From NCBI RefSeq assembly GCF_965363235.1, contig NC_134839.1, positions 57,317,560-57,381,559 of the forward strand: a DNA stretch of 64,000 nt, given 5' to 3'. Below, piece after piece: positions 2,758 through 21,747 of this stretch. Source of the stretch: Mytilus galloprovincialis. Its lineage: Eukaryota > Mollusca > Bivalvia > Mytilida > Mytilidae. The notes below the pieces were generated by a model. The model made no database searches. It saw only the letters and a list, made by a program, of their open reading frames with translations, and was not told the origin of the DNA. A program made the position numbers and the translations under genes. Numbering within the stretch: the first letter of the stretch is position 1; each line of letters opens with the position of its first letter.

Positions 2758-4776
2758 ATAAACAATTAAAATAACCATGACTCATATAATATAAGTTGGA
2801 AATACAGCATTGACTGTGACAGTTACACACAACCAAATCTATGTTGTCTTTGATTGTGAAACTATTTTGTTTTGATATTGAACAAATAAAGTTTCAATGC
2901 TTCATTTAAAAAAAAAAAATTGGCAGGAAATCAATTATTTATGACTATTTTTCTGAAGAAATTTCCATCATTTTATGATATTTAGATTCGGTTTCCAGAC
3001 AACATGACAGTTCATTATTGTTTTTTCTCTCCTACAGATTGTATATCAAAACTGGGCTCCATATACTGTACTTAATTTAGACTTAAAATCAGTAAACTTA
3101 ATCCAAAAAGAAGACATAGTTTTAATAGTTCGGGAAAAAACGTTAAAACATAGAAAATAAAGTAATAAGATATAAATGCACTAAGAAAAAAATCTTACGT
3201 AACCAACTGGCAACACAAATATTTACTTATTTAAAGGAATCATAAAGAGCTGCCATTAATTATTTACAATCATTGAGCAGTTAATTAAGATATTTTGTCA
3301 TGTTTTGATTAATGAATTGTCAGCATTATTTACTCACATTTTCACCTTCCTACATGTTGTACAATATTTGAAAATAACAAACTTGTTAAACCCTGAGCAA
3401 GTTAACAGTTTGGTTTATTACATAGACACTTGTCCACAAATAAGATCTTGTGATGACCTTTTCTTGTTTTTTGTTTTTGTTTTTTTAAAGCTGTTGCCCA
3501 TTATACAACATTAAAACATACAAGAACTTAAGTCAGTGTACAATAGATAATATTAAAATTTTTATTAGTTACTAGTCAGAGTAATTATATTTTTCCTATA
3601 ACATGTATATAAGACTATTCTGATATTACCGACTTTTGACTTCAGAGTTTATATTTTTTTTTCAACAGGTTATCTACTCGGAGGCAGAACATTATGGTAC
3701 TTTATCAAGTAAGAAGTAAAGAAATAAAATCAAGCTCATTATCAGGTCAATTCCGTTTGATATTTCTTTTTAAGGTTGCTATACCCTACTGAGTACCACA
3801 GAGTAGGAAACCAGTTAAACCTGTAGATTTTGTTTCAATCTGAAGTCAAAAGTAGGTTATATGAATTGTGTGTTACAGAATATAAAATTGAGATTATCAT
3901 ATTAGAATTCCATGGATCCAATACTAGTTGCAGGATTTACTAATTTTTTGGGTATACTTTAGGTGAGCAACAAAGTCAAATTGTTCAATAAAATACAAAT
4001 TGTCTATTTATAAGAATCACAAAATTAATTATCAACAAAATATACAATCTCTTTTTCAATACACTATTCTATAAAGCACAAACATATCAAAATATTATAA
4101 ATACACAATATAGAATTGTCATACAAAAGGTCATATTTCTTTTTATTTTCAATGCCCTACAAAAATATTTTAAACTATAAAAAAAAACATGAATGAAAAC
4201 TATAAAGTGTAATAAACAAAGGCAACAGTAATCATCAGTTACCATAAAACCTTTTAAAATATACAATAAAAATATATGACGATGAAGACTAGATGAATTC
4301 TACAAAGAACGTGATTATTATTATAAATATTGATATGATCATTCTAAAACATTTCTTCTATTTTTCTACACAAAATTATTAATCAGATTACATGTGGGAT
4401 TCGGTTTTTTAATATTGCAACTTTTGCAAGCTAGTATCAACACACTCTGAAGGATCTATATTGTTTTACACAAAAATGTGTTTGTTGAACTATATGATAA
4501 GACTACAGTAAATATAGAAATTTTTGCAATTCTAAAACTTGTGATTGGAAAGGTTGATATACACAAATTATAACTTACATCTAAAAAATTTAAAAAATTA
4601 TGTATGTGCAGTAATTCTAATCATTGTAATAATTAATCTGTAATAATGTTTTCTATTGAACCATTGCAATAATATAAGCATGCACAAATTTCTGAATTTG
4701 CAGTACTATATTTTAAGATGAAATTATATATCTTTCACATTTCATTATTTAGTATCACACAGTTTTACATTACATA
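2758..4776. other. AT-rich flanking DNA, nothing recognised
   Basis: The stretch is very AT-rich with homopolymer runs. I found no splice-bordered exon, RNA gene or inverted-repeat element in it. Confidence 0.4.
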
Positions 4777-5196
4777 AGTATAACCCTATGCAACATTTCT
4801 GTAGTATGACCCTATGTAACATTTCATTAATATGACCCTATGTAACATTTCTTGAGTATGACCCTAGGTAACATTTCATTAATATGACCCTATGTAACAG
4901 TTCTTTAGTATGACCCTAGGTAACATTTCATTAATATGACCCTATGTAACAGTTCTTTAGTATGACCCTAGGTAACATTTCATTAATATGACCCTATGTA
5001 ACAGTTCTTTAGTATGACCCTAGGTAACATTTCATTAATATGACCCTATGTAACAGTTCTTTAGTATGACCCTAGGTAACATTTCATTAATATGACCCTA
5101 TGTAACAGTTCTTTAGTATGACCCTAGGTAACATTTCATTAATATGACCCTATGTAACAGTTCTTTAGTATGACCCTAGGTAACATTTCATTAGTA
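4777..5196. repeat. 26-bp minisatellite with a two-unit (52-bp) higher-order period
   Basis: About sixteen head-to-tail units, each beginning TATGACCCTA, occupy the interval. From about 4860 on, two versions alternate regularly: one with ..GGTAACATTTCATTAA and one with ..TGTAACAGTTCTTTAG. The array has therefore grown by copying a two-unit 52-bp block. The units at the left end are more divergent. Units abut with no unique spacers between them. Confidence 0.95.
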
Positions 5197-5389
5197 TAAA
5201 TATATTGGCTAAATTAAAATAAAGTCTCATTATGTAAATATTGAATCACAGCAAATAAAATATAATATCATTTATTTTAATTTGATCTATAACTTGTCAA
5301 AGACAAACTTTACAATAAATATCAATTTAATATCTACAAACATGATAACACAAAGTGTGGGATAACTGATTAGTTGCACGAGTTTTTGC

Positions 5390-6968: not shown

Positions 6969-7982
6969 GGCCACGGTTTTTTAATTTGTTGGTTTACGGA
7001 TTTTCCCCATGAAAAAATCGGGTCGGTCGGTCGGGAAAAAAAAGAAAAAAAAAATCTTTCAAGACAGAAAAAAAAATGCAAAATAAATATACATTTCACC
7101 ATTCTAACAAAATGTTTTTTATGCTATTTTGTCATCATTTCAAATTTTAGTTCGATGAAATATTCTTGCTCAGCTGTCATAAATATCGCATGACATTGTC
7201 TAATGATTTGCCGTAAAAAAGGGGGGTGTTCACAGACAAAGACGAAATTAAATCGTCTTTTCACAAACAAGAAAAACAAATTCGCGTAGCTCTTAATCAA
7301 TTCCAGAAAACTTGGTGAGTAATGATCTTCAAAAACGAAAACTGATAAAGAAAAAAATGTAAAAAACGTCGTACGAAAATAAGTTTCAACACACGTGTCA
7401 AAAACGTAATAGACTCGTCCACGGAAAAAAAGAGAATATCGGGTTTATAATCTAGTGTCATGCATTCCCGTTTTTTTATCCAAATGGACGATATTTTTTT
7501 TTTATTATCCATGAAACAAGAAAATTCTAAATGACTTGTTGATATTCAGAACTTTTACTTCCAAGGTGCTTCCCACCTGTCCACATTTGGACAAGTCTAT
7601 TTCTATGAGATTATGCATCTTACAGACTGATGACAAATAAGGGAAACGAACTTATTGTGTAATGGGTTTTAAACACAGATTTCGTTCCGCAAAATTATTT
7701 GCGTAAACGACATTTCAAGGTCAGTTATAATTGATTTGTCTATTTTTAGAAACGTAAACTGGAAGTTTTATTTTTTCACAACAGAGAGTGTTATCAATTT
7801 TGTTAGTGATTCATGCATTTCATTTCATAAAAAAAGAATCATTTAATTATTTTTCAGGGATAATGTATTTGTTTGGGTCGGCGGGAATAAAAAAGTATGA
7901 AAAGTCAATTTTATTTTTATTCTAGGAATCGGCAAAATCGGGTCGGCGGATCCGTAAACCAACAAATTAAAAAATCCTGGCC
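6969..7982. mobile_element. 1.0-kb inverted-repeat DNA transposon, PIF/Harbinger-like, non-autonomous
   Basis: The left end (GGCCACGGTTTTTTAATTTG, continuing TTGGTTTACGGAT) matches the reverse complement of the right end over more than 30 bases. TAA flanks both sides (6966-6968 and 7983-7985). A 3-bp TWA duplication with GGCC-type ends is typical of PIF/Harbinger. Internal GGGTCGGCGG motifs recur near the right end. I see no transposase. Because it ends 77 bp beyond the stop codon of the minus-strand oxidase activator, it probably lies in that gene's 3' untranslated region. Confidence 0.75.
7911..7918 (-). promoter_or_regulatory. candidate polyadenylation signals for the oxidase-activator gene
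   Basis: On the minus strand this reads AATAAA-type sequence (TTTTATTT on the plus strand), about 140 bases beyond the TAG stop and inside the Harbinger-like element. It is the nearest signal I see, so the element may supply the transcript end. The stretch is A/T-rich, so chance matches are likely. Confidence 0.35.
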
Positions 7983-8058: not shown

Positions 8059-8661
8059 CTAAGTTCTCTTTTTGGGGGGTAAAGGAGGCAAATTATTTTG
8101 TTTCAATGGAGGGGGTGGGGCTCTAAAAGAGGGTGGTGGAGGGGGAGGTTTGTAAGAAGGAGGGGGAGGAATGTTACGAGTTGAACCATTGGAACCAGAT
8201 TTGGTAGGGGATTGGGACAGATTTTGTGATGGTAATGTTTTGGTTGTAGCTTTGACTGGTAATGGAGGTGAATCAAAATTTGAATTTGTTGATGGACTTA
8301 TGTTACGGGGACAGGATGTTGAACCAGGAGGAGGAGGTCTTCTTGGGGGTCTTGATGGAGTATGAGAGGGCTTAGGAGGAGGTTTTGAAGGCATATTTTT
8401 GTTTTTAAACTGAGCATTAAGTGCATTTGTGAGTTCATTGTTTTTGGAAAATTGCCAGCTCTGACTAGATGCTTCCTCTTTCTTTAATTCTTCAACTATG
8501 CTTCCCATTGACCTTGATGTCCGCAATTCTGAAGGTTGTGGTGGCAGTGGCCGTCGTGGCAGAGGTGGTGTTCTAGGTGCTAGTGAACGATAATTTGGTT
8601 TTTCTGCAGTTTCAGTATTAGAAGTGGAATTAGAATGTCCTCTAACGGATCCTTTAATGAC
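8059..8661 (-). CDS. oxidase activator exon 6: activation-domain end and proline-rich tail
   Basis: The acceptor TTTTTTAG precedes GTCATTAAAGGA. The exon encodes residues 215-414 and ends in TAG. It begins VIKGSVRG, continuing the activation-like segment. It then holds a basic polyproline motif (PPLPRRPLPP), a charged stretch with EELKKEEASSQSW, a possible short amphipathic segment (ELTNALNAQFKNK), and successive proline clusters up to PPLPPKKRT. The stop TAG is followed directly by GTAAAA, so a donor-like site abuts the stop. The plus-strand open frame at 8171-8365 is only its antisense shadow. Confidence 0.85.
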   Translation of the reverse strand, partial: VIKGSVRGHSNSTSNTETAEKPNYRSLAPRTPPLPRRPLPPQPSELRTSRSMGSIVEELKKEEASSQSWQFSKNNELTNALNAQFKNKNMPSKPPPKPSHTPSRPPRRPPPPGSTSCPRNISPSTNSNFDSPPLPVKATTKTLPSQNLSQSPTKSGSNGSTRNIPPPPSYKPPPPPPSFRAPPPPLKQNNLPPLPPKKRT

Positions 8662-11600
8662 CTAAAAAAATGTTTAAATATAATGTTTAATATTGATAAA
8701 TATACTAGCTAAAATGACAGGCTCAAGAAATAGACATCACACATGTATAATGAAGATATTTAGCATCTACTGAATATTTTGATATTATTTACAAACCGTA
8801 TTTTCATAAATTAAACTCATGGTACAGTGCCTTGTCATAAGAAGCATAAGCTCCTCTTTTATTCATTACATAATAACTGCATATCCATTCATTTAAGATT
8901 AAATTTAAATCATTTGAGAGTCCAATGTTAAACTTTAATCAAAAGTCATGGTAACTACTTTATGTCATCAAGACACAACAAAAAATAAAGTGACCTGAAC
9001 TAAATTATCATTGACATCATAATGTATGCTCTAATGTTGATTAGTGTGCAACTTAATATCCTCCTATGGTTTGCTGGTAAAACAAAGCAAAACTATTGTT
9101 TGTATGGTAAAAACACACAAACAAACATGCATCAAATAGCTTCATTATGTGACTTGCAGCTGATATTTAACAGCATTAATATAAAGAGAACTGATATTTT
9201 TACACTTATCTACCTTAGGAATGTGATGCACTCTAAAATATCTATTAACTCATATAATTCAACAAAAATTTACATAGATTGCTACGAATAATGATTTAAC
9301 TTTTAGTTAAAATAATTAATTTAGTTAGATAGGAAAACAATACATTCATTAATCTGCAATGTTATTTTTACATATAATGCTATCATATTGTTGTAGTGAA
9401 ATGTACAAGGGAGGAGAACTCTTGTGCTAAACTAGCTTTCTACTATACTTTCTTTTTTATACTTTCTTTTAGCATTGAATGCTGTTTTTTTCTTTATTTA
9501 TATAAAATGGCCTTTTCATATAACGTTACATGGTCAATGCTTACTGTCATTTCTTATAAATTTTGAAAATCACAACGTTTTAATCTTATATCTACAAATC
9601 TTTCAAATAAATAAAATACATACTATATTATCATCATTTTAAATCAGAAAGTAAATCTTTAAACACAAAATTTAGACAGAAATTGTCTAATGAGATGAAA
9701 GCAGTATCATTTCACATGAAATCCATTAAACTTCATTTACATGATTTAGCTGAAATTTGCATAGAGGAGATTTTGATAGTCATGATTGTGAAGCAGATAG
9801 CTCATCAAAATAATTTTTAAATTTCAATAATTCTATAAATGTATGTTATGGGATAATAAATTTACTGCTACATTTTTACACCTTTTATGCATATGTAAAA
9901 TATATACAGTTTCAACTACTTTTTCAAACTTAATACAATATATTGGCAGTTCTTGAATCAGCTTAAAACATTGTCATGAAATAAAAGCAAGCCAAATGTA
10001 TTAGACACAACACAATAAGCAGTGAGGATACTGCAAGGTTAAACACACAATTCTTAATGTTTATCACTTCTCTCCACTCAAAAAGTATACAACACTCCTT
10101 AACTTTAAACTATTGTCAGTTCTATTATATGACAAAAATTTAGGTATATCTTTTTTTTTTGTATAAAATTTTTGTACTTTGTATAACTTTGTATACAATG
10201 TTTAAAATATTTTTCAAAATATTTTTCAAAATTTGTATTTTTTTTTTAAAATTGACTTCACTATAACTGTTGCTCTTTACCTATAACAATTCATTCAAAA
10301 TTCTGACCAAATCGAAACTTGTTTAAACAAACCAAACTGTTGAACTGGTTAAACTGGAAAAATGCAGTTAATACGGTACACTATGATAAAACAAATGTAA
10401 TTTGGTCAGAACTTGGTCAGAACTTTTTTTGAACTACTATATGTGGAGAGCAGCTCTAAAGCCCCGGTCACAACAGATCGTACGATTTTTTGTCGTGTTA
10501 GATCTACAAAATAGTTGTCGTGGCACTGTCGTGCAAAATGTCAAAAAAATAATTCAATGGTCACATCAGCTACGACATGTCCATGATGGTTTCACGATGG
10601 GTACAGTACAGAAAAACAGAATTGTAATTGTACTGTCGTGGGTTTGTCGCAAGTGAGTCGTGCGAAAGTCATGCAAAAGTCATGCGACAGTCGTACGACA
10701 ATAGTCAGTTGTTTGGGGCTATTTTTCAGGTTTTCATGTCATGGGATGCACGTATTACTGTTGTGCCACTGTCGAACAACTGTTGCACGATTGTCGCAAA
10801 ACAGTCTTGGGTCACTCGCACGTTTGACTCCCAACTACTAGTATATAAAGATGGCCCGATTTATTACATGCCATTTGCCATTTGCTGTCAATATTGTTCA
10901 GTGTCATTACAAGTTCGGTCCAAATAAACGACATTTTCGTATTAGTTTATATTATAAATGTTTAGCGAATTTAAACCAGGCTGCCCCCTGAAAGAAAAAT
11001 TAACAAGTAAACGTGGTTGATGTTGATCAGACGGTGGACCCCATACCACAAGCTGAATCAAATGACGTTTCCGAAACTGCTGGAGATGACCCTCCTAATA
11101 ATGTCTCTATGTGACAGGGGACAGGGAGGAATCTACGGACATTCCCGCCAAATTGTATTTTTCTAAATAAAACAAAAATATATTGCACGACAAACTTACC
11201 ACTGTCGTACGACAGACAATGAGATTGTTGTACGACAGTTGTGTGACAGTTGAACGAATGTTTTTATTAAAATGGTTTATTTTGGTACCAAAGACAATGT
11301 GTTAACTGCACGACAGTCACACAACTGTGGTAAGACACTCTCACGACAGCCACAAGACAGTCACATGACAAAAAATTGTGGAGCAAAAAAGGTCTATGTT
11401 CAATTTTACCACGACACACGACAGCGCCACAATGCTGAAAATATCGTGTGACGGTCGTATGACAATCACAGATGACCCGCGATTTGACCAAATTTCATGT
11501 CATAGCACTGCATAGATGTGTCATGGGTTCGTTGTGACCAAGTTTTTACATATAAGTCATAGTAGCGAATAAACTCATCAAAGATACCAGGATTAAATTT

Positions 11601-14600
11601 TGTATTTACACCAGACGCAACTTTCATATACAATAGATTCATCAGTGACACTCATTTCCCAAAAAGTTAAAAACCACAAATAAACAAGTCAAAACTTGGA
11701 TTTTGAAACTGAAATTTTTGATAATGAGTTTTAATATTTTACAGAAGTGTTAAACTACATAATTAGGTGTATCAGAAGTGATCACATATCCCAGAATTCT
11801 GTGCAGATTATTTGACACACAACAGAAAACATTGGACCTTTTCATTGGTTTCCACAGGAATTTTACCATCTCCATACCTAGCAATAACCTGATAAGGCCA
11901 AAATACTATATATCATTTCATACAGTAAAGTAAACTAGAGGCTCTTAAGAGCCTGTGTCGCTCAACTTGGTCTATATGCATATTAAACAAAGAACACAGA
12001 TGGATTCATGACAAATTGTGTTTTGGTGATGGTGATGTGTTTGTAGATCTTACTTTACTGAACATTCTTGCTACTTACAATTTTCTGTATCTATAATACA
12101 CTTGGCCCTTTAGTTACAGAGGATAATATTTTGTAAAAATTTAAAAAAGTTTACCAAATTAATGAAAATTGTTAAAAATTTACTATAAAAGGCAACAACT
12201 CCTTCAGGGGTCAACTGACCATATTGGTCATGTAGACTTATTTGTAGATCTTACTTTGCTGAACATTATTGCTCTTACATTTTATCTCTATCTATAATAG
12301 TATTCAAGATAATAACCCAATGCCAAAGTTTCTTTAAAAATTAACAATTGGGGGGCAGCAACCCAAAATCCCAATTCCAATTCATCTGAAAATTTCAGGG
12401 CAGATAGATATTGACTTGATAAACAATTTAACCCCATTGAGATATTTGCTCTAAATGCTTTGGTTTCAGAGTTATAAGCCAAAATCATCATTTTACCCTT
12501 ATGTTCTATTTTTAGCCATGGCAGCCATCTTGGTTGGTTGGGTGGGTCACCACACACATTTTTTAAACTAGTTACCCTAATTATGATTGTGGCTAAGTTT
12601 GGTTAAATTTGGCCCAGAAGTTTCAGAGGAGAAGATTTTTGTACAAGATTACAAACATTTACGAAAAATTGGTAAAAAATGACTATAAAGGGCAATAACT
12701 CCTTAAGGGGTCAACTGACCATTTTGGTCAAGTTGATTTATTTGTAGATCTTACTCTGCTGAACATTATTGTTGTTCATAGTTTATCTCTATCTATAATA
12801 ATATTCAAGATGATAACCAAAAATGGCAAAATTTCCTTAAAATTACCAATTCAGGGGCAGCAACCCAACAACAGGGTGTCTGATTCATCTGAAAATTTCA
12901 GGACAGATAGATCTTGACTTGATAAACAATTTAACCCTCATGTCAGAATTGCTCTAAATGCTTTGGTTTCAGAGTTATAAGCCAAATTTTTAAAACTAGA
13001 TACCCCAATGATGATTGTGGCCAAGTTTGGTCAACTTTAACCCAGTAGTTTCAGAGGAAAAGATTTTGGTAAAGTTAACGACGACGGACGACGACGACAA
13101 CGGATGCCAAGTGATGAGAAAAGCTCACTTGGCCCTTTGGGCCAGGTGAGCTAAACAAATAATATATTATATGAAATCATACATATGTCATATGAAACAA
13201 TGATTTTAGTAAATGTTGTTATAAATGATAAAATCTAAAAATAGCAAAAACAAAATCAATGTGCGTCAGTTCTGTAGATGTATGAAAAATGTTTCTTTCA
13301 GAAAATATGAACTGTATTTCATTTGTTCATCAAACATTTGATTAAGATTCTTAGTTATTAAAATTGCTGTAATAGCACATTAACTAAATAGAGATATATA
13401 GATAAGACAGTTGGTTTTCCCGTTTGAATGGTTTTACACTCTTCATTTTTTGGGCCCTATATAGCTTGCTGTTCGGTGTGAGCCAAGGCTCTGTGTTTAG
13501 GACAGTACACGGAACTATAATGGTTTACTTTTATAAATTATTACTTGGATGGAGAGTTGTCTCATTGTCACTCATATCACATTTTCTTATATCTATATGT
13601 GTCATAAATAACCAAAATCAAGTTAATTAAGGTTAACTGTCACTTTTGGTTAGAAGATTTGTACAATGTAGATCCTCCACAAGGAAAATTTCTTATATTA
13701 AACTTAACTTGTGTAACGTTCTCCAATAAAAACATGTTTCCTTAAAAAAGGGAACAAATACAAGTACCATGGCATAATCAATATCCAATAAGACAGACAA
13801 CTACATGGTAAAAAAAATGACAACATTAGAGCAAAAAAACTTATTTTTGAAACTAAAACCTAAACATGAAGCTACTCAAATTAAACCCCATTAAATTATG
13901 GCTTTTGATAGGGACCCATGGCCAGGAAGGGTCAGCAGCAATGTCTTCACAAGTCATTATACAAATGAAGATAAAGATTGATAGCCCTACAAGCAAAAAT
14001 ATTTGTTGAAATATCAACAACAAAGGAAGCAAACGCTTGGTAATTTATAGTAACTCATTTGCTTACTATGAACTAGTTTATTTACTTTCATCAAAAAGGT
14101 GTTTTCAGTCTAAACCAATCCAAGAACCTATTGCCATGTGTGGTACTATGACTGCTATGTGATCAGAACCACAGTAACAACACTTCAACCATAGGTAAAA
14201 ACTTTTAATAGGTATGGGTTCTGTTCATTGCTGAATGCTGTACAGTAACCTTTAGTTGTTAATTTCTGTCATTTGGTCTCTTCTGGAAAGTTGTTTCATT
14301 TGCAATCATACTTTTATATTTGACATGTTTCAACTGATTTATATAGAGGTACACTATAGCTCAAGTGGATGTTTCCATTACCATCTGATATTAGTGGTAG
14401 TTTGGGTAACCTTAAAGATATCCCTTTGGTCACCCTTTTAGACAAGACATATCATTTCAGTTTCAATATCATGTGAATTGATTATACAATACCTTGCAAA
14501 ACAAAAGCTTTTTTTTCAATATTTTTATGTTAAATTTGAATGAATTTGAATAGTGGGCAGGTGAAAAAGGTAAAATCTATCTGAACTGTAGTGTATGTCA

Positions 14601-17600
14601 TTAGACTCTGACCGTGTAAGGGCTGTATAGCCTGCAGTCAAGGCCGTTAAAATCTTCCATTTGCTGTTGTCATTAGATGTGACAAATGTTTCCAGCAGAC
14701 ATATATGATAGATACCGAGTGATGACAACAGCTCAAGTGACATTTTGCCAAGTGAACTATATAATTTCAACTTCAACAGACCTTTGCTTTTGCTACATAT
14801 TCCTTTCTTCCTAAATTTGCTACCATATCTTTTGGTGGTTGAAATAAACATTCACCTGGTACTTCAAATTCATTAAATGAACTCGGAAGATTTCCCTATA
14901 AAAGAAAAAATAAACCTATCTAGTTGTTCATAAAAACTCAGTCACAGGTTTCTGAAAAATTGGAGAAAAAGTACAAAATATTAGCAATTAATTCCATGAT
15001 TCCATGATGTTATTACAGGTCAACAATAAATACATCAAACAATTGTATATTATTTCAGTGGAGCAATAAAACAAATTATTTTGGATTATGAATTAAGTGC
15101 TAATCTGCCCAAGAATCAGGCTGTGGTGAAAACATGACAACAACCAGCTCAAGTTGACATCAATTTTGTTTGCTTTTCCTATTCTTATATTTCAAGACAC
15201 AATTTGGTTGAAATGTACTAGAAACTACCAATTACCCTGTTATTTTTTATCATTCAAACAAAAGTAATCTAGAGATATCTCAAATTACCAGACATGCAAA
15301 TACAAAAGTCCTACTATTTCTAACTAAAGATGAGGATAACTTCAAAATAGGATCCGTGTTTTTTTTACCATGTTGTTACATTGGTTTAAATTGATTCTTA
15401 CAAAGCGGCACTTACTTATATTTGTATAATTTAGACAAGATATAAAACTATGTGATTTTTATAAAAGATTAAAAAAGCTGTATTCTTTAATTAACAAACA
15501 GCTGAACAAGTTATAATGTGATAATATAGATCACTGAATCTTTTAGGTAATGCATCAGCAGGTGCAGGAAACTACATGAACTACAGAATACCAAATATTT
15601 CAGTCACCTCACTGATGCCAACTTGTATGCTTTTAAAGTGTAATACATGTTTTTTCAATTGTTTAAATGTACTCGTGTTTTCATCAAATGGAGTGAACGT
15701 TCAGTGTATGTTTACTAATTTTTTGTTAATATGTACTTTGATTGAGTTAAGCCTTGATTTCAATTGATATTTGTGGTGTGTCCTTTTATGTTGTGATGTT
15801 ACACTTTTATTTCAGATAAGGGTGAAGGTTGGTGTCAGTTATAACGTATAAACCTGCTGCATTTGTTTGCACCTGTCCTAAGTGAGAAACCTGATGATAA
15901 GTTGTTGTCGTTTGTTGATGTGGTTGACAGTGTTCTCATTTCTTAAATAGATTAGATCGTTGGTTTTCCTGTTTGAATGGTTTTACACTAGTCATTTTTG
16001 ATGGCAATTATAGCTGGCTGTTTGATTTGACCCAAGGCTCTGTTTTAAAGGCTGTATTTTGACCTTTAATGGATTACATTTTTTAATTGTGTCTTGGATG
16101 GAGAGTTGTCTCATTGGCACTAATACCACATCTTCTTATACATGTATCTATGTACACAAACTTTTTGGCATGACAAAAATTCTCATTGCTAATATTAGAA
16201 GACAATTATGAGAGAACCTTTAAAATAAACCATTTTCTAGAGATATATCCATACCTTATAACCTTCCTGTTTAACTAGTGTCAAGTCCTGTATAGTTTTC
16301 ACACTGATTCTGCTATGGACTTCTTCTTCTGCTATCTTGCCAGCATCTATTAACATATGTACAGCAGTTCTTATATCTCCTTGCCTGGCAAAACATACTG
16401 CTCTGTTAAACTGTATCTACAAGATTTAAAATTGAATATCTAAATAAATAAATTTGGTGTTTTTACGGTCTTCTGATTGGTTAAAATTATTAGTTTTATT
16501 TTCAATGTTGTCAATTTTGATGGTGACACGCCCACTCTGACGTTGTGTATTCATACGCCAACATGTGTGTACGTTGTTATTGTTAATATAAATAATACAA
16601 AAAGTTCTTTGAGCCTTATTTTTGATAGAAATTTATTTATAATGAATGGCAATAATTTATTTTGACTTTATTGAACCATAAAACTAATTTTTGACTCTCC
16701 ACATTTTACATAATCCGCTTCGCAGATTATTCAATGTGAAGAGTCAAAAATTAGTTTTATGGTTGAATAAATTGAAAATAGATAATAGCCATTCATTAAA
16801 TACAGTAGTGTAGAACTTGATCACAAGATTTTTTTTAAAAGAAAGAGGGTGCCAAAGTTAAAGGCATGCAAAGGCTAGAGAGAATTATTTCAATCCAAAT
16901 TCCACATTTTTTCAGTGACTTATATCTCAAAATCAAGCACACCAACTCTTCATTTTTTTCTGCTTTTTTAGTTCCCTTTTTTATGCCATTTTAATACATT
17001 TATAACAGTATTTTAAAAAGCTTTTTATTTTGCAACAAAGTACTGACCATCCTTGACGAGCAAGTACAATGGATTTTTTACTCATTATTTTTTTTTCTAT
17101 AAGGTTCTGTAGTTTATTATTTATATATTTCAGTGGCGGATCCAGAACTTTTCCTAAGGGGGCCCGCTGACTGACCTAATTGGGGGGCTTCAGTCATGCT
17201 TCAATGATTCCCTATATAATCAACCAAATCTTTCCCACGAAAGGGGTATTTTGTTGTATTCAACTTATAAATGGAACAAATATTAGAATAGTAGGTGGAT
17301 TTTTAAATTACTACAAGAAACCGTAAATTTTTAAGACATGGTCAAATAAATCAGCCCAGATGAGTTTGTGATATATCATACATATTCAAGTATCAGTTTT
17401 ATTATGAAATATTGGAAATATTTTATAGAAATATGCCAAATTCAAAACAAGGCATGCATATATATAGTTAAGGAGTAAGAAAGGTAAAATAAGTTTTCAG
17501 GGTATACTCATAATAGTTTTTTTCTAGGATATTTCCTTTGAATGGCATTTTTACAGTAAATAATATGACATTATACAACAATAGCAAAACATTTTACTTT

Positions 17601-20600
17601 TAAACAACAAAGTTCTCTAGCACCAATAACAAGTATTTTGAAAGGTAAATATCATTTCCTTGGATTATTTTCTTACTCACCTCAAATTTATATAAAGTGA
17701 AATTCAATCCAAGCTGACTATACTTTATAAAAGAAGATCCACGTAAACTTTGTTCTGCTCTATCTAAATCATCAAGTGCCTCACTGTATCTAAAATTACA
17801 AAAATATATTTACATGTATCACAGTAAGAATAAAAAGATGTGCCAAGAGAGTATGATAAACCCTCATTATGCAAATTGAAATTGAGGCAAGAATATAATA
17901 GGATATCTAGAAGGCATTTAAATCAAAATGTTAGATTAGAAGGCTCTGCAGAAATTCATGTACTGTGGATTCATTTTTATTCGTGGTATACCAATTTTCG
18001 TTGGTTTCGTGGGTCACAGCGAACCACGAATTTAAGAATTCAACGAAGAATAATCCCGAGAAATGTGTATGGAGTTGGATGTTTATTTCCGGTTATGTTA
18101 TGCAGTTCTAGTATAGTGTTGACTAACGATAAACATTGTAACATAACACGTGATTTTTATTGAAAGAAGATACAAGTATTTTGATTAAATCTATAATAAA
18201 TATATCGAATATCAGTGATAATTTACTTTTTAAAATTGATTAAAACTGTTCATGGAAAATAACTGCAAGTTGTTAATTACCGTGTCATACTTAGTTTGGT
18301 TTACCTGTGATTAAAAATCAATAGGATTAAGTACGGGGATATTGCCCGTAGGTAATATTGTTTATGACAGGAACATTTATTTTCACACCTTATACTTATA
18401 TCACTGTTTATTATATCGTGATTAGGGAAATTAGCTTTCAATCATAAAGTTTTGAATGCCTTATAGAATTCAGACAAGAATTTATAAATTGTAAAACAAA
18501 CAAATAATTAGTTGTCTCTGCCCATTATTGTAATCGAAGTTATCAATGAATGACCAATTAAGTGAGGATTTTGACAATTCAAAACTTTTTCAATGAATTC
18601 CTTCTTTTTTGTTTTGTTTTTTTTATTGATCGAACCAAGGATGTTATATGATCTCCTAAATCAAAAAGAAATCCACGAATTACGTATCTATTTTTTGCTG
18701 TTGTAATCAGCGATCCACGAATTTACGTATACCACGAAACGTCTTTTTTTCACTATCCACGAAAATTGATACCCACGAAAATAAATGAATCCACAGTATG
18801 CGGATATTCTTTGAAGTATAAATATTTATACTTCAAAGGATTGTCAAATGTCCATAAATAACTCTGGAATGACAAACCTGCAAAATTTTTCAAATTAGAA
18901 AGAGAGTTTTCATTCACTTTGTTCACTAATCCCTACAGCAGTGTATCAGTAAGTTTGAAGTGATTTGATCCAAGAATACTGCAGTGGTAGTGTACGACAT
19001 TTCTAAAATGCTTCTTATTTATCTAAGGGTCAAAGTCCAATAACTCTGGAAGGATATTTTTTTTTAATCAAATGGTTTGTTCTGTCACCAATTCCAACAA
19101 TAATGTAAAGTTTTCAGTAAATCAATCCAAGCAGCCTCAGGTATTGCTAGAACAGGTGAAAAATTTATTTAAATCATACAATCTAAGTCCTGTTATGCAT
19201 GGATCAACAAACCAAAAAATATAAAAAGTCTAAAGGTAGTTTCCTATTATAAATTCCAACAATAATGTAAGGTTATGAGGAAATTAATTATGGCATGCTT
19301 GGGTTAATGTGCATTATGTGACTAGACCCATGACTTTTATTGAAGGAAGTATGCTGACATCTCAATGCCCTCGAGAGATATTTGTTTCATTGGGTTGCTG
19401 TCTAAATGTCTCTATTTATTCCTACAATCATGCAATGATCAAGCAACCATACATAGTACAACTAACAAATTATGGAGACTAAATTGTATTGTTAAACTTT
19501 TAAACCTATCCCAAACAATTTGAAAGAATAAATAGTGAGTTCAACTACCATGACTTCTACAACGATATTGTCTTGAAGTGCAGGTAATGTTAATTATATA
19601 TAAAGAATCATACTTTTTTAATTTAAGGTACTGCACTGCTCTATGATAAAAAGCCACAGCTAAATGAGGATCCTTTTTTATTGCTTCTCCTAGGTGCTGC
19701 AAGTAAATAAATTTGATTATAATTCAATTCTAGCATTATGAACATGACAACAAATATAGTATTGTATTGAAATTATTGCGTGCATTTATTATTGCCATTC
19801 TGTCATTTAAGTTTAAAATACGCTTTTAATTTTTGCGATTTTGAGAAAAATCCTCTTTAGATCATGTTAAAGATTTCAAAATGCTTATGTTGTACTGTAC
19901 TTTTACACCTCTGCACCAAGTTAAGGGAGGGGGCCTTTTATAGCTTACTATACAGTATGGGTTCTGCTCATTGTTGAAGGCTGTAGCATGACCAATGCTT
20001 ATTTACTTTTATACATCATTTGGTCTATGGTCTATGGTAGTGATTTGTCTCATTGGCAGTCATACCACATCTTCATCTTTTTATGTGAATAGACACGCTG
20101 TAATCTCTTGCCTTCATAATAAGTTATGACTTTGATGTGGTAAAAAAATTGGTGCTCCAGGTGTTAATAAGACTAAGGTTTGGCTATAAATACAAAAAAA
20201 AGTTTTAAAATCATGCCCATTGATTATGAAAATTAGGTTAAATCTGGGGTGAACCCTATCTGACAAAAACATGATTGTCATAACAGTCATGTATGTCTAT
20301 CTTTTATAACCGTACAGTAAATCTGAGGATTAAATATAGATAACATTTCATAGATAATAATCAATACAATGAGCTCAGTACGAAAATTTACAATGTACAA
20401 TGTAACACAGATCAATGAATGATGAGGAGCTCCAGGTCCAGGTCAGGTGAACTTTGTCGAACAGATATCGCCATCATGACCATACAGTGATTCTACTGAT
20501 GAAATAATCAACCTTTTACTTGTATGGCTAACTGACATACATGTATAAATCATAAAAACTTTAATAGCATTATCCTGTACATGCTGTACATTGTATCATA

Positions 20601-21747
20601 TCAAGGGAGCAAACATTTTTATCCCAGTCAGAAATATTTTTTTCACCCAAAGCGTGACAATTATATTTTAGTTTTTCAATGCTATCAATCAAATAAATTT
20701 TTTTTCTACAAAATTTAAACACTAAAACATGTATAAGGTATGGGGGAGAATTTGGTTTCTGAATTAACTATTTGTTTTTTCATCTGCTTGACCACAATGT
20801 TTATTTTCATCAAATTTTGAATCAGAATATTTTTTTTACACCATAACCCTCCATTCATGATTGAACAGTTCCCAAATGAATATCATCTGAAAATGTTCAC
20901 ATCTTTGTCATTTGGTCTTTTATCATGACGAAATAAATAAAGATTTTTATTTTAGGTAAAAAACAAGCAAATAGGAAATCAGAGACTGAAATTATCACAC
21001 ATTTTTATCAAATGGATTTGTTCCTGGTTACAATAAATACCTATTTTTCGAAAACAAACATTTTAATTATTTTGCCTAGCTTTTCGCTGCAAAAATGGCA
21101 ACCCCTGGCCCTCATGGTCCTGCCACCTTTTGTTTTGTTTTTGTACTACATTTTGTATATAGCATTTTGTTCTGAGGGATGGAAAGCAAAGTACTCCAAT
21201 AAATAAAATAAACACTTAGTTAAACACTAATCATTCCTAATAGAGTACTGATCAGTTTAATTGTTGCACTGTATAACTTCAGTCCAAATTTATGTACAGG
21301 ATATACTAATTCATACAATGAACAATGTACTTATCATTCCTATTGTTTTATTTAATTGTCGAACTACTTCAGAGGAAAGACTTACAGGATATATTCATAC
21401 AATGAACAATGTGTGTGTACATGCATATTGATCAATTGTTTATGGTGTCCTTTCTTAATTAACAACTTATAAACATGGACATTGGTTAACATGATGATTT
21501 TAAAAGTTACCGAATGTCTCATGATTTGAGTAATTTGTGTGTACCTATCCAAAGAATGATCAAGAATTCATACCACAATACAATCATTCTCTCTGCTAAG
21601 TCCTTTCAATACACAGGCGATATTGAACTGGATACGAGCACTCGGCTCAAGTATGTTGTTAAAACTAAGTAGGGAGTCCTTGTATCGGTCCTCTTGGAAA
21701 GCAACAACGCCTTCGTTCCAACAACGAACTGTCTCCAAAAATGCCAT
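8059..21747 (-). CDS. p67phox/NOXA1-like NADPH oxidase activator (six exons, 414 aa)
   Basis: Six exons (21747-21574, 19696-19614, 17789-17681, 16416-16255, 14895-14782, 8661-8059) join in frame to 414 residues. Residues 1-176 match the TPR region of vertebrate p67phox (NCF2) and NOXA1: the start MAFLETVRCWNEGVVAF, then HLAVAFYHRAV, then SLRGSSFIKY with Arg102 at the position of the Rac-binding Arg102 of p67phox. Residues 205-219 (..KEYVAKAKVIKGSV) correspond to the activation domain that stimulates the Nox flavocytochrome. Residues 220-414 are Ser/Pro-rich with SH3-ligand-like PPLPRRPLPP and PPLPPKK motifs. No SH3 or PB1 domain is present, unlike full p67phox (526 aa). The start ATG has a strong context (A at -3, G at +4). 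Expected role, inferred from the family: cytosolic Rac-dependent activator of a Nox1/2-type superoxide-producing oxidase. Confidence 0.85.
10466..11539. mobile_element. 1.07-kb element rich in GTCGTACGAC-type palindromes
   Basis: Short inverted ends (GGTCACAAC at 10466 and GTTGTGACC at 11531) bracket a region studded with variants of TCGTGCGACAGTCGTACGAC in both orientations. Examples lie near 10485, 10640-10700, 11200-11240 and 11310-11460. A unique middle part (about 10830-11180) separates two palindrome-rich flanks that are roughly inverse to each other. No transposase-like reading frame is seen. It looks like a foldback-type non-autonomous element inside intron 5 of the oxidase activator. 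Confidence 0.6.
11565..11650. repeat. fragment of the CAGACGCGCG dispersed family
   Basis: AAACTCATCAAAGATACCAG is followed by a TTTACACCAGACGC segment and ATTCATCAGTGACACTCA. This is the same order as the fuller copies at 42738, 43312, 48340 and 63886, but without the GCGTTTCGTC core. Confidence 0.6.
11936..13155. repeat. 1.2-kb dispersed repeat with an internal ~500-bp tandem period
   Basis: It starts GAGGCTCTTAAGAGCCTGTG and ends with GGGCCAGGTGAGC. Two internal copies begin at about 12191 and 12688 (CAATAACTCCTT, then GGGGTCAACTGACCAT and TATTTGTAGATCTTACT), giving a period near 497 bases. Near the right end a GACGACGGACGACGACGAC stretch precedes a short palindrome around GGCCCTTTGGGCC. 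I recognise this from mussel and other bivalve loci, where it is often mis-annotated as protein. It has no coding capacity here and its class is unknown. Confidence 0.7.
13405..13605 (+). repeat. CATACCACATCTTCTT-family dispersed repeat
   Basis: The order is GTTTGAATGGTTTTACACT, GGGCCCTATATAGCTTGCTG, GCCAAGGCTCTGTG, ACTTGGATGGAGAGTTGTCT and a CACTCATATCACAT end. The same order appears at 15940-16145, with fragments elsewhere in the window. It is likely SINE-like or otherwise non-autonomous, but I see no clear polymerase III boxes. Confidence 0.6.
14213..14320 (+). repeat. fragment of the CATACCACATCTTCTT family
   Basis: GTATGGGTTCTGTTCATTGC, a TAGTTGTTAATTTCTGTC segment, CATTTGGTCTCTTCTGG and a TTTGCAATCATAC end match the 3' half of the family member at 31090-31385. 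Confidence 0.55.
14782..14895 (-). CDS. oxidase activator exon 5: start of the activation domain
   Basis: The acceptor CTTTTATAG precedes GGAAATCTTCCG. It encodes residues 177-214, including ECLFQPPKDMVANLGRKEY, which aligns with GRLFRPNERQVAQLAKKDY of human p67phox. The donor reads GTCTGT; TGA would follow in frame two codons later, so splicing here is required. Phase 0 at both ends. Confidence 0.8.
14896..16254 (-). other. intron 4 of the oxidase-activator gene (phase 0)
   Basis: The donor is GTATGG. It contains one full dispersed repeat (15870-16145). The remainder is AT-rich with nothing recognised. Confidence 0.7.
15870..16145 (+). repeat. CATACCACATCTTCTT-family dispersed repeat
   Basis: It begins with the module TTTGCACCTGTCCTAAGTGA and GTTGTTGTCGTTTGTTGATG, then GTTTGAATGGTTTTACACTA. 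It ends GGAGAGTTGTCTCATTGGCA and ACCACATCTTCTTATAC. This is the longest copy in the oxidase-activator gene, inserted antisense to it. Confidence 0.65.
16255..16416 (-). CDS. oxidase activator exon 4: last TPR and capping helix
   Basis: The acceptor CTTGTAG precedes ATACAGTTT; the donor is AAG|GTATGG. It encodes residues 123-176. IQFNRAVCFARQGDIRTAVH has the TPR pattern of the human stretch [20 protein letters not shown]. The end, EEEVHSRISVKTIQDLTLVK, is likely the helix that packs back on the repeats. Phase 0 at both ends. Confidence 0.85.
16641..16798. repeat. 158-bp foldback (inverted repeat)
   Basis: Two arms of about 63-66 bases (16641-16703 and 16733-16798) are near-perfect reverse complements. 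Each contains AACCATAAAACTAATTTTTG or its complement. The centre is CCGCTTCGCAG. It would fold into a long hairpin in the intron RNA. Probably a foldback MITE. Confidence 0.8.
17131..17250. mobile_element. hAT-type terminal fragment
   Basis: CAGTGGCGGATCCAG at 17131 is a terminal inverted repeat widespread in non-autonomous hAT elements. A GGGGGCCCGCTG stretch follows. No matching right end was found nearby. A related pair of ends is at 24011-24137. Confidence 0.4.
17681..17789 (-). CDS. oxidase activator exon 3: Rac-contact region of the TPRs
   Basis: The acceptor ATTTTAG precedes ATACAGTGAGG. It completes Lys86 and encodes up to Glu122: YSEALDDLDRAEQSLRG, then SSFIKYSQLGLNFTLYKFE. Against human p67phox (LRGNQLIDYKILGLQFKL) the Rac-contact Arg102 is kept at the same residue number. 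Asn104, Leu106 and Asp108 are replaced by Ser, Phe and Lys. Incoming phase 2, outgoing phase 0. Confidence 0.85.
17963..18796. mobile_element. 834-bp MITE, TA target site, CTGTGGATTCAT termini
   Basis: The left end CTGTGGATTCATTTTTATTC and the right end (reverse complement CTGTGGATTCATTTATTTTC) are matching inverted repeats, both flanked by TA (17961-17962, 18797-18798). Sub-terminal CCACGAA/TTCGTGG motifs are repeated inside both ends. The TA duplication fits the Tc1/mariner superfamily. It has no transposase, so it is non-autonomous. These CTGTGGATTCAT ends are common in bivalve genomes. Confidence 0.85.
18809..18838. repeat. perfect 30-bp palindrome
   Basis: CTTTGAAGTATAAAT is followed directly by its exact reverse complement. 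It lies 12 bases beyond the MITE end in intron 2 of the oxidase activator. Confidence 0.9.
19614..19696 (-). CDS. oxidase activator exon 2: TPR
   Basis: The acceptor TTACTTGCAG precedes CACCTAGGAGAA; the donor is AAAAAA|GTATGA. It encodes residues 59-85 plus two bases of codon 86: HLGEAIKKDPHLAVAFYHRA then VQYLKLK. The core closely matches [20 protein letters not shown] of human p67phox. Phase 0 in, phase 2 out. Confidence 0.85.
19697..21573 (-). other. intron 1 of the oxidase-activator gene (phase 0)
   Basis: The donor is GTATGA. It contains a dispersed repeat fragment at 19925-20085. The rest is AT-rich and unremarkable. Confidence 0.7.
19925..20085 (+). repeat. fragment of the CATACCACATCTTCTT family
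   Basis: GTATGGGTTCTGCTCATTGT, CATTTGGTCTATGGTCTATG (with a small internal duplication of GGTCTAT) and CAGTCATACCACATCTTCAT mark a copy in intron 1 of the oxidase activator. Confidence 0.6.
21574..21747 (-). CDS. oxidase activator exon 1: start codon and first TPR
   Basis: It encodes residues 1-58, starting MAFLETVRCWNEGVVAFQED and ending at a GTG|GTATGA donor. Human p67phox starts [20 protein letters not shown], so start and register agree. ARIQFNIACVL matches SRICFNIGCMY. The ATG context is CAACATGG. Phase 0 out. Confidence 0.9.

Follow-up and report, generated by a model that had tools for sequence, protein, structure and literature searches.

A p67phox-type oxidase activator that carries a proline-rich C-terminal tail in place of the SH3 and PB1 domains of vertebrate p67phox is encoded in the window, the stretch of 64,000 nucleotides of Mytilus galloprovincialis DNA analysed here. 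From the domain layout of this protein and of the other oxidase components in the genome, the tail would dock on an SH3 domain of the organizer, which is the reverse of the vertebrate p47phox-p67phox contact, and the protein would serve as the activator of a Nox2-like oxidase; we put the probability of this reading at roughly 0.6.

Gene structure and the N-terminal half

The gene consists of six exons on the minus strand, from 21747 to 8059 (Table 1; C2:57325618-57339306 in the genome), and encodes a product of 414 amino acids. All five introns have GT-AG splice sites, and the reading frame is continuous. The start and stop placed by an earlier sequence-only reading of this DNA are retained, as M1 was aligned with M1 of p67phox, in-frame stops lie upstream of it and the TAG ends exon 6.

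Table 1. Features of the activator gene (positions in the window)
Feature	Position	Strand	Description and evidence
Exon 1, aa 1-58	21574..21747	-	Start codon and first TPR; gene model, p67phox alignment, tblastn (E 1e-7)
Exon 2, aa 59-86	19614..19696	-	TPR segment with Rac-contact D67 and H69 (KDPHLAVA); gene model, alignment, tblastn
Exon 3, aa 86-122	17681..17789	-	TPR and LRG segment with Rac-contact R102; gene model, alignment, tblastn
Exon 4, aa 123-176	16255..16416	-	Last TPR helices; gene model, alignment
Exon 5, aa 177-214	14782..14895	-	Linker and first part of activation segment (RKEYVAKAK); gene model, alignment, tblastn
Exon 6, aa 215-414 and stop	8059..8661	-	Opens with the V204-aligned valine, then proline-rich tail, TAG; gene model, alignment
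Proline-rich tail coding region, aa 220-414 and stop	8059..8646	-	6 PxxPx[RK], 4 [RK]xxPxxP; C-terminus LPPLPPKKRT
Two AATAAA hexamers, candidate poly(A) signals	7910..7921	-	Offsets 137 and 143 past the stop; weak evidence, DNA AT-rich

Residues 1-218 matched residues 1-207 of human p67phox (PDB 1hh8) with an E value of 9.4e-29, which bears out the claim that the N-terminal 219 residues correspond to p67phox/NOXA1, and the N-terminal half also matched the Rac-complex structure 1e96 (E 1.5e-27). The predicted fold of this half is clear from a match at E 1e-28. TPR_1 and TPR_2 scored above the Pfam cut-offs, and further TPR models, ANAPC3 and Cdc6_lid scored below them.

H69, a Rac contact of p67phox, is kept in the mussel protein, and four of the seven Rac-contact residues differ (S37A, N104S, L106F and D108K). 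D67 and R102, both identical in the mussel activator in the 1hh8 alignment, are the residues named as critical for Rac binding in the excerpted text of Kawahara & Lambeth 2007 (PMC2121648). In the activation segment, EYVAKAKV of the mussel protein lies opposite DYLGKATV of p67phox, and the essential V204 was aligned with V215. Exon 6 opens with the codon for V215, which links this exon to the activator gene. By homology, the TPR half, D67/R102 and the V204 activation segment place the protein in the p67phox/NOXA1 activator family.

The SH3-A, PB1 and SH3-B set of vertebrate-type p67phox (NCF2) is missing; no SH3 or PB1 domain was detected in the activator protein by Pfam at E values up to 0.1. 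The sequence-only reading had measured the protein against this SH3-PB1-SH3 layout, and the mussel protein indeed lacks these domains; however, the layout is not the obvious baseline, as the p67phox-like proteins of Ciona and sea urchin are described as lacking PB1 in the available part of PMC2121648. The equivalent of K196 (K207) is kept in the mussel protein although it has no PB1 domain, contrary to the published correlation between K196 and PB1.

The proline-rich tail

The tail (aa 220-414) comprises 195 amino acids, 46 of which are proline (24%), and runs to the TAG, as had been claimed for a tail of about 195 residues rich in SH3-ligand motifs. Six class II motifs (PxxPx[R/K]; two of them overlapping, at 406 and 407) were counted against a mean of 1.57 in 2000 shuffles, 0.6% of which reached six, and four class I motifs ([R/K]xxPxxP) against a mean of 1.50, with 5.2% reaching four; 11 patterns were tried and the figures are uncorrected. 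The proline-richness is plain, and the excess of class I and II motifs is suggestive, with that of class I being marginal. Among the other patterns, PPxY (9.7% of shuffles), PPR[PR] (20%) and LKK[TE] (0.8%) occurred once each, and the EVH1 type, PxxDY, the CIN85 type and RxxK gave no match in the tail. Proline-rich tails can bind many SH3 proteins.

At 200 codons, the frame of exon 6 exceeds every other stop-to-stop frame of the 64 kb, the next having 140. The GC contents by codon position were 0.46/0.60/0.24 in exon 6 and 0.50/0.33/0.28 in exons 1-5, with the third position low in both. A shorter isoform is possible through a donor-like site at 8513, which scores 4.4 within the range of the used donors (3.6-12.7). 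A module common to the tail (LNAQF) and the organizer linker (LKSKF, LKARF and LKAMF) was considered; its local alignment score of 103 was matched by 11 of 300 shuffled tails, and no claim is made for it.

Other oxidase genes in the genome

The organizer locus (C4:28458082-28490787) contains PX pieces, two adjacent SH3 domains with GWW, and then SH3-3, SH3-4 and SH3-5. The PX-SH3-SH3 pieces matched NCF1 in PDB with an E value of 4.5e-46, and the PX piece alone matched 1kq6 (E 4.8e-15). This PX domain was pieced together from three exons, one stretch of it escaping detection, and it scored 15.9 bits against a Pfam cut-off of 21.6. PX pieces were matched at this locus only, which accounts for 9 of the 49 matches; the other 40 fall in the SH3 part, none of them starting before query position 87. 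Judged from the exon pieces, the PX domain, the tandem SH3 pair and the further SH3 domains would place the locus in the SH3PXD2/p47phox organizer family, and in its predicted domain layout, with five SH3, it is SH3PXD2/Tks-like. A p47phox-like protein with four SH3 domains is described for sea urchin in the excerpt of PMC2121648.

The p22phox gene (C6:26751861-26759395) carries PPPRAPP. Human p22phox has PPPRPP at this place. The Nox2-like gene (C10:12645615-12667292) received 10 of the 36 matches of human NOX2, at 38-73% identity, and the two top-ranking ones are among them; seven further loci matched NOX2 more weakly, and the C10 gene was picked by its matches.

No p40phox was found: all 33 of 33 query matches lay over its SH3 domain (query 165-248), with none elsewhere in its PX or PB1 domain, and none of the five PB1 matches in the genome lay near any of the 20 PX matches. 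The absence of p40phox or of another organizer is not airtight, since the genome PX scan missed the intron-split PX domain of the organizer.

Proposed docking of the tail on the organizer

In the proposed complex, Rac-GTP would bind the TPR part of the activator, and the activation segment would act on Nox2 as in vertebrates. The PX domain of the organizer would bind the membrane, and its tandem SH3 pair would bind p22phox. An organizer SH3, most simply SH3-3, SH3-4 or SH3-5, could then grip the tail and bring the activator to the membrane, so that the ligand would come from the activator and the SH3 from the organizer.

Three features of the Ciona-type p67phox recur here: a proline-rich C-terminus in place of SH3/PB1, organizer SH3 domains beyond the tandem pair (SH3-3, -4 and -5 of the C4 locus) and an apparent lack of p40phox in the genome, within a limited PX scan. 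The sequence-only reading had proposed that partner choice would be inverted or different; the architecture and the gene inventory (no p40phox found, spare organizer SH3) fit this and make it plausible, but the idea is not new, having been put forward for Ciona in 2007.

With a real activator half, the tail might instead mainly serve other SH3 proteins such as actin, endocytic or kinase adaptors, with recruitment to the oxidase by Rac and Nox2 contacts alone. Many partners would be at hand, as SH3_1, the sole SH3 model run in the genome profile scan, gave 79 matches, and the tail motifs are of the generic classes I and II. However, activator and organizer dock in vertebrates and in the Ciona and sea urchin models in the excerpted text of Kawahara & Lambeth (PMC2121648), the organizer has SH3 domains to spare, and Pfam gives the activator no other docking domain; we regard this alternative as unlikely, though deserving of attention.

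The tail could also bind the tandem SH3 groove of the organizer and thus compete with p22phox and the autoinhibitory segment of the organizer. A single PPRR in the tail (aa 319-322), the RPPPRLN after SH3-2 of the organizer and the PPPRA in p22phox are in keeping with this, and PPPRPKT of human NCF2 is suggested as a ligand of the tandem groove in the part of PMC12730246 consulted. The published tandem-SH3 motif, however, has no match in the tail in either its strict or its relaxed form, with Arg at position 1 instead of [PAVIL], and competition for the groove appears improbable.

We entertain, more tentatively than docking on the organizer itself, that the mussel oxidase does without a dedicated p47phox or NOXO1 and that one five-SH3 SH3PXD2/Tks-type scaffold is its sole organizer, to which the proline-rich-tailed p67phox is matched; the odds are somewhat against it. 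SH3PXD2/Tks in vertebrates is a podosome and invadopodium protein. If the idea holds, the pairing of Tks with a proline-rich activator would be a lasting version of the burst oxidase, possibly the ancestral one in bilaterians, and the vertebrate exchange of a proline-rich region for SH3 and the p40phox/PB1 arm would be later additions.

Search for SH3/PB1 exons and second copies

The reported absence of SH3 or PB1 exons in the 8 kb beyond the stop was upheld by tblastn with the C-terminal half of human p67phox, which found none there or in a further 40 kb to the left (best E 5.8 to the left); the same procedure with human p47phox recovered each of the five organizer SH3 domains. On the contig of the activator, Pfam gave no SH3_1 match from 53.98 to 65.2 Mb and no match to PB1 at all, so that neither lies within 3 Mb of the gene. 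Genome-wide, the C-terminal half of human p67phox gave 47 matches, none of them in its PB1 part.

These results bear on an incomplete gene model, in which distant exons or alternative splicing around exon 6 would add SH3/PB1 domains in a longer isoform. The SH3_1 scan can overlook domains split by introns, as it reported just three of the organizer's five SH3 domains. A donor-like TAG/GTAAAA at the stop has a score of 4.4 (used donors, 3.6-12.7), but from its place after the in-frame stop it cannot lengthen the protein. Given the empty 48 kb and the contig scan, such an isoform is very improbable.

The p67phox genome search returned nine matches, six of which are the exons of the activator itself. 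A second or complete NCF2 was sought, as had been proposed, and rejected, as the three non-self matches had E values of 4.3-5.7; no second p67phox/NCF2 locus was found in the genome. Viral contigs searched for stray relatives gave 10 pattern matches, none of which was confirmed. A decayed or shortened NCF2 copy of vertebrate type at this locus would account for the missing C-terminal half, but is scarcely credible: all six exons are intact, their splice sites are canonical, the frame has no internal stop, and the genome search turned up no better copy.

Significance

One activator with a proline-rich tail, one five-SH3 organizer, p22phox and a Nox2-like gene, with no p40phox found, make up a small and concrete parts list for testing the docking-swap hypothesis of 2007 in a reconstituted oxidase. 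In the annotation of invertebrate oxidases, vertebrate-type NCF2/NCF1 domain sets should not be taken for granted. Production of ROS is reported for oyster haemocytes, although one title (PMC3463542) implicates the mitochondria of unstimulated cells.

Comparison with known systems

The mussel activator has in common with vertebrate p67phox (NCF2) the TPR and activation half, the start, V204, K196, D67 and R102. Vertebrate p67phox then has SH3-A, PB1 and SH3-B, whereas the mussel protein has none of these and its tail is a predicted SH3 ligand, not a receptor. Vertebrate NOXA1 offers a parallel to the proposed contact, since this activator is bound by SH3 domains of Tks4/Tks5 in the available part of PMC7663256, where Gianni 2009 and 2011 are cited and the 2011 title refers to binding through a NoxA1 proline-rich region; NOXA1, however, keeps PB1 and a C-terminal SH3 (PMC2121648, excerpt), both of which the mussel activator lacks.

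Among molluscs, the limpet Lottia gigantea has p67phox together with p47phox-like and p22phox-like genes and Nox2, as given in the excerpt of PMC2121648. For the Sydney rock oyster, a bivalve p67phox transcript with a partial sequence of 185 amino acids is described in the excerpt of PMC4892480, in which neither p47phox nor p40phox is listed as found in the transcriptome. The open-licence literature matches listed, consulted as excerpts, contained no description of the anatomy or tail of a Mytilus p67phox.

The closest counterpart is the p67phox-like protein of Ciona intestinalis, for which Kawahara & Lambeth 2007 (PMC2121648, excerpt) described a proline-rich tail without SH3 or PB1 and proposed reversed docking. 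As in the mussel, it has TPRs with both critical Rac residues, an activation segment and a proline-rich C-terminus, and it goes together with an organizer with extra C-terminal SH3 and no p40phox found in the genome (PMC2121648, excerpt). The proline-rich region spans aa 256-348 in Ciona (same source) versus aa 220-414 in the mussel, and the two are likened by description. In summary, the proline-rich-tailed layout was already known from Ciona, and the mussel activator is a well-supported new example of it.

Gene structure and p67phox-like half of the activator

The window lies at C2:57317560-57381559 (C2 being the contig that carries it) within a genome of 1.385 Gb. The p67phox-like gene that the sequence-only reading had placed at 8059-21747, here called the activator, was recovered as six exons with GT-AG introns and a frame unbroken over 414 residues, and the locus is real, intact and had been read correctly from sequence alone. 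In-frame stops precede the start codon; downstream, AATAAA hexamers were located 137 and 143 bases past the stop. The frame of exon 6 was the longest ORF of the window (200 codons; next longest, 140), with a low, coding-like third-position GC. Exon 6 opens on the codon for the valine that matches V204, an essential residue of human p67phox, and retention of intron 5, as read from the sequence, would give a protein ending in KVC and a stop. Exon 6 is thereby linked to the gene, as a protein without it would either lose this valine or end in that way.

The exon 5 donor at window position 14782 reads GTCTGT, and read-through yields KVC with a stop directly after the activation valine; intron retention would therefore make a natural tail-less activator half. 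At 8059-8061, the TAG stop stands directly 5' of GTAAAA, a donor-like sequence scoring like a weak used donor; a splice there keeps the stop, and thus only a spliced 3' UTR is possible.

Coordinates of the activator exons and of the other oxidase genes (C4, C6 and C10, other contigs of the same genome)
Feature	Location	Strand	Description
Exon 1	window 21747-21574	minus	six-exon model
Exon 2	window 19696-19614	minus	six-exon model
Exon 3	window 17789-17681	minus	six-exon model
Exon 4	window 16416-16255	minus	six-exon model
Exon 5	window 14895-14782	minus	six-exon model
Exon 6	window 8661-8059	minus	six-exon model
Organizer	C4:28458082-28490787		PX pieces in three exons, tandem SH3 pair, RPPPRLN, third SH3, last ORF
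p22phox	C6:26751861-26759395		five exon pieces, first residues not found
Nox2-like gene	C10:12645615-12667292		10/36 human NOX2 matches, 38-73% identity

Residues 1-218 of the activator aligned with residues 1-207 of human p67phox (PDB 1hh8, E 9.4e-29), consistent with the N-terminal match of 219 residues claimed earlier, and the Rac complex structure 1e96 was matched with an E of 1.5e-27. In the 1hh8 alignment, D67, H69 and R102 of p67phox were unchanged, and S37, N104, L106 and D108 were replaced by A, S, F and K. We take H69, S37, N104, L106 and D108 to be Rac contacts. D67 and R102 are the two critical Rac residues in the available text of Kawahara & Lambeth 2007 (PMC2121648). The activation segment is DYLGKATV in p67phox versus EYVAKAKV in the activator, and only TPR_1 and TPR_2 exceeded the Pfam cut-off.

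By alignment, K207 (window 14803-14805) corresponds to human K196, and by Pfam the activator has no PB1. A basic residue at 196 is tied to a functional PB1 in the same text, with one exception noted by its authors (PMC2121648); K207 in the activator runs counter to this correlation.

Proline-rich tail and search for SH3 and PB1 domains

The tail (aa 220-414) contained 46 prolines in 195 residues, six class II motifs (aa 246, 316, 346, 396, 406 and 407, the last two overlapping) and four class I motifs, as expected from the ligand-type tail of about 195 residues proposed from sequence. In 2000 shuffled tails, class II motifs averaged 1.57 (at least six in 0.6%) and class I motifs 1.50 (at least four in 5.2%), values uncorrected for the 11 patterns tried. 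The tandem-SH3 motif, as given in the available text of Kalman et al. 2025 (PMC12730246), did not occur in the tail in strict or relaxed form. The tail has LNAQF preceding KPPPKP, and the organizer linker (C4:28488730-28490787) has LKSKF, LKARF and LKAMF; the similarity is weak, its score being equalled by 11 of 300 shuffles.

The reported absence of SH3 and PB1 exons in the 8 kb past the stop held in tblastn with the C-terminal half of human p67phox, which found nothing convincing there, nor in the next 40 kb to the left (lowest E, 5.8 leftward, and 1.4 inside the window, at the proline tail itself). As a positive control, the organizer locus was picked up by human p47phox in the same search, with PX pieces and all five of its SH3 domains. 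Genome-wide, the p67phox half gave 47 matches, none within its PB1 part. Whole-genome scans returned 79 SH3_1 matches (E <=0.001), the nearest on the window's contig 3.3 Mb away, and five PB1 matches (E <=0.01), none on that contig. The SH3_1 scan can overlook intron-split domains, since it reported three of the five at the organizer control locus. The search for a second complete NCF2 gave no confident locus: six of nine p67phox matches were the activator, and the other three had E >=4.3. Window positions 4767-5197 hold a tandem array that reads as 16.6 copies of 26 bp (84% matches) or as 8.3 copies of 52 bp (97% matches).

Other oxidase components

The PX and SH3-SH3 pieces of the organizer matched p47phox in the PDB (E 4.5e-46; PX piece alone, 4.8e-15). 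One stretch of the PX was not found among its three exon pieces, and the domain fell below the Pfam cut-off and was absent from the genome PX scan output. The last ORF (686 codons) contains a linker rich in proline, together with two SH3 domains at the C-terminus. RPPPRLN stands at the position of the autoinhibitory PPR motif in p47phox and Tks, the latter per the available text of PMC12730246. No second organizer locus was found with the organizer PX query (9 of 49 matches were itself, 40 in the SH3 part). An ORF of at least 844 codons (C4:28454001-28456532), still open where the scanned stretch begins and 1.5 kb upstream of the first PX piece, resembles a LINE-type reverse transcriptase, as FADDCKVY and FSKAFDTVPH presumably indicate.

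All 33 matches of p40phox in the genome covered its SH3 (query 165-248), and p40phox was not found. Mussel p22phox carries PPPRAPP at the site of the human motif, which we take to be PPPRPP. Human NOX2 matched seven further loci more weakly, and an NAD_binding_6 scan was also run. In a 770-codon frame at C4:52623367-52625298, the four best matches to what we take to be the mussel foot protein 1 repeat were 98-100% identical, which by this single test marks the genome as that of a Mytilus-type mussel.

Proposed docking model and comparison with known systems

The observed domain layouts and oxidase gene inventory suggest a model whose contacts are all putative. The SH3 domains of the organizer would grip the activator tail, its tandem pair would remain bound to p22phox, and the activator half would act as its vertebrate counterpart does, by way of Rac and the activation segment. 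This is the simplest model because the activator is without SH3 and PB1, p40phox was not found and the organizer has three spare SH3 domains.

The organizer, its layout taken from exon pieces, shares five SH3 domains with SH3PXD2/Tks. In the available text of PMC7663256, a Tks protein with five SH3 domains binds NOXA1 through one or more of them, and the title of a 2011 paper cited there mentions a proline-rich region of NoxA1. For oyster, the available text of PMC4892480 reports a partial p67phox, with p47phox and p40phox not found. According to the available text of PMC2121648, limpet p67phox has TPRs and an AD-like region, PB1 is missing from Ciona and sea urchin p67phox-like proteins in parallel with the absence of p40phox, and Ciona p47phox has an additional C-terminal SH3. 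Ciona p67phox is described there as without SH3 and PB1, with C-terminal PRRs at aa 256-348, and thus shares both traits with the mussel activator. The latter is ordinary in kind and a useful, clean test case; as this kind has already been described in Ciona, the mussel gene extends it to a bivalve, together with a gene inventory.
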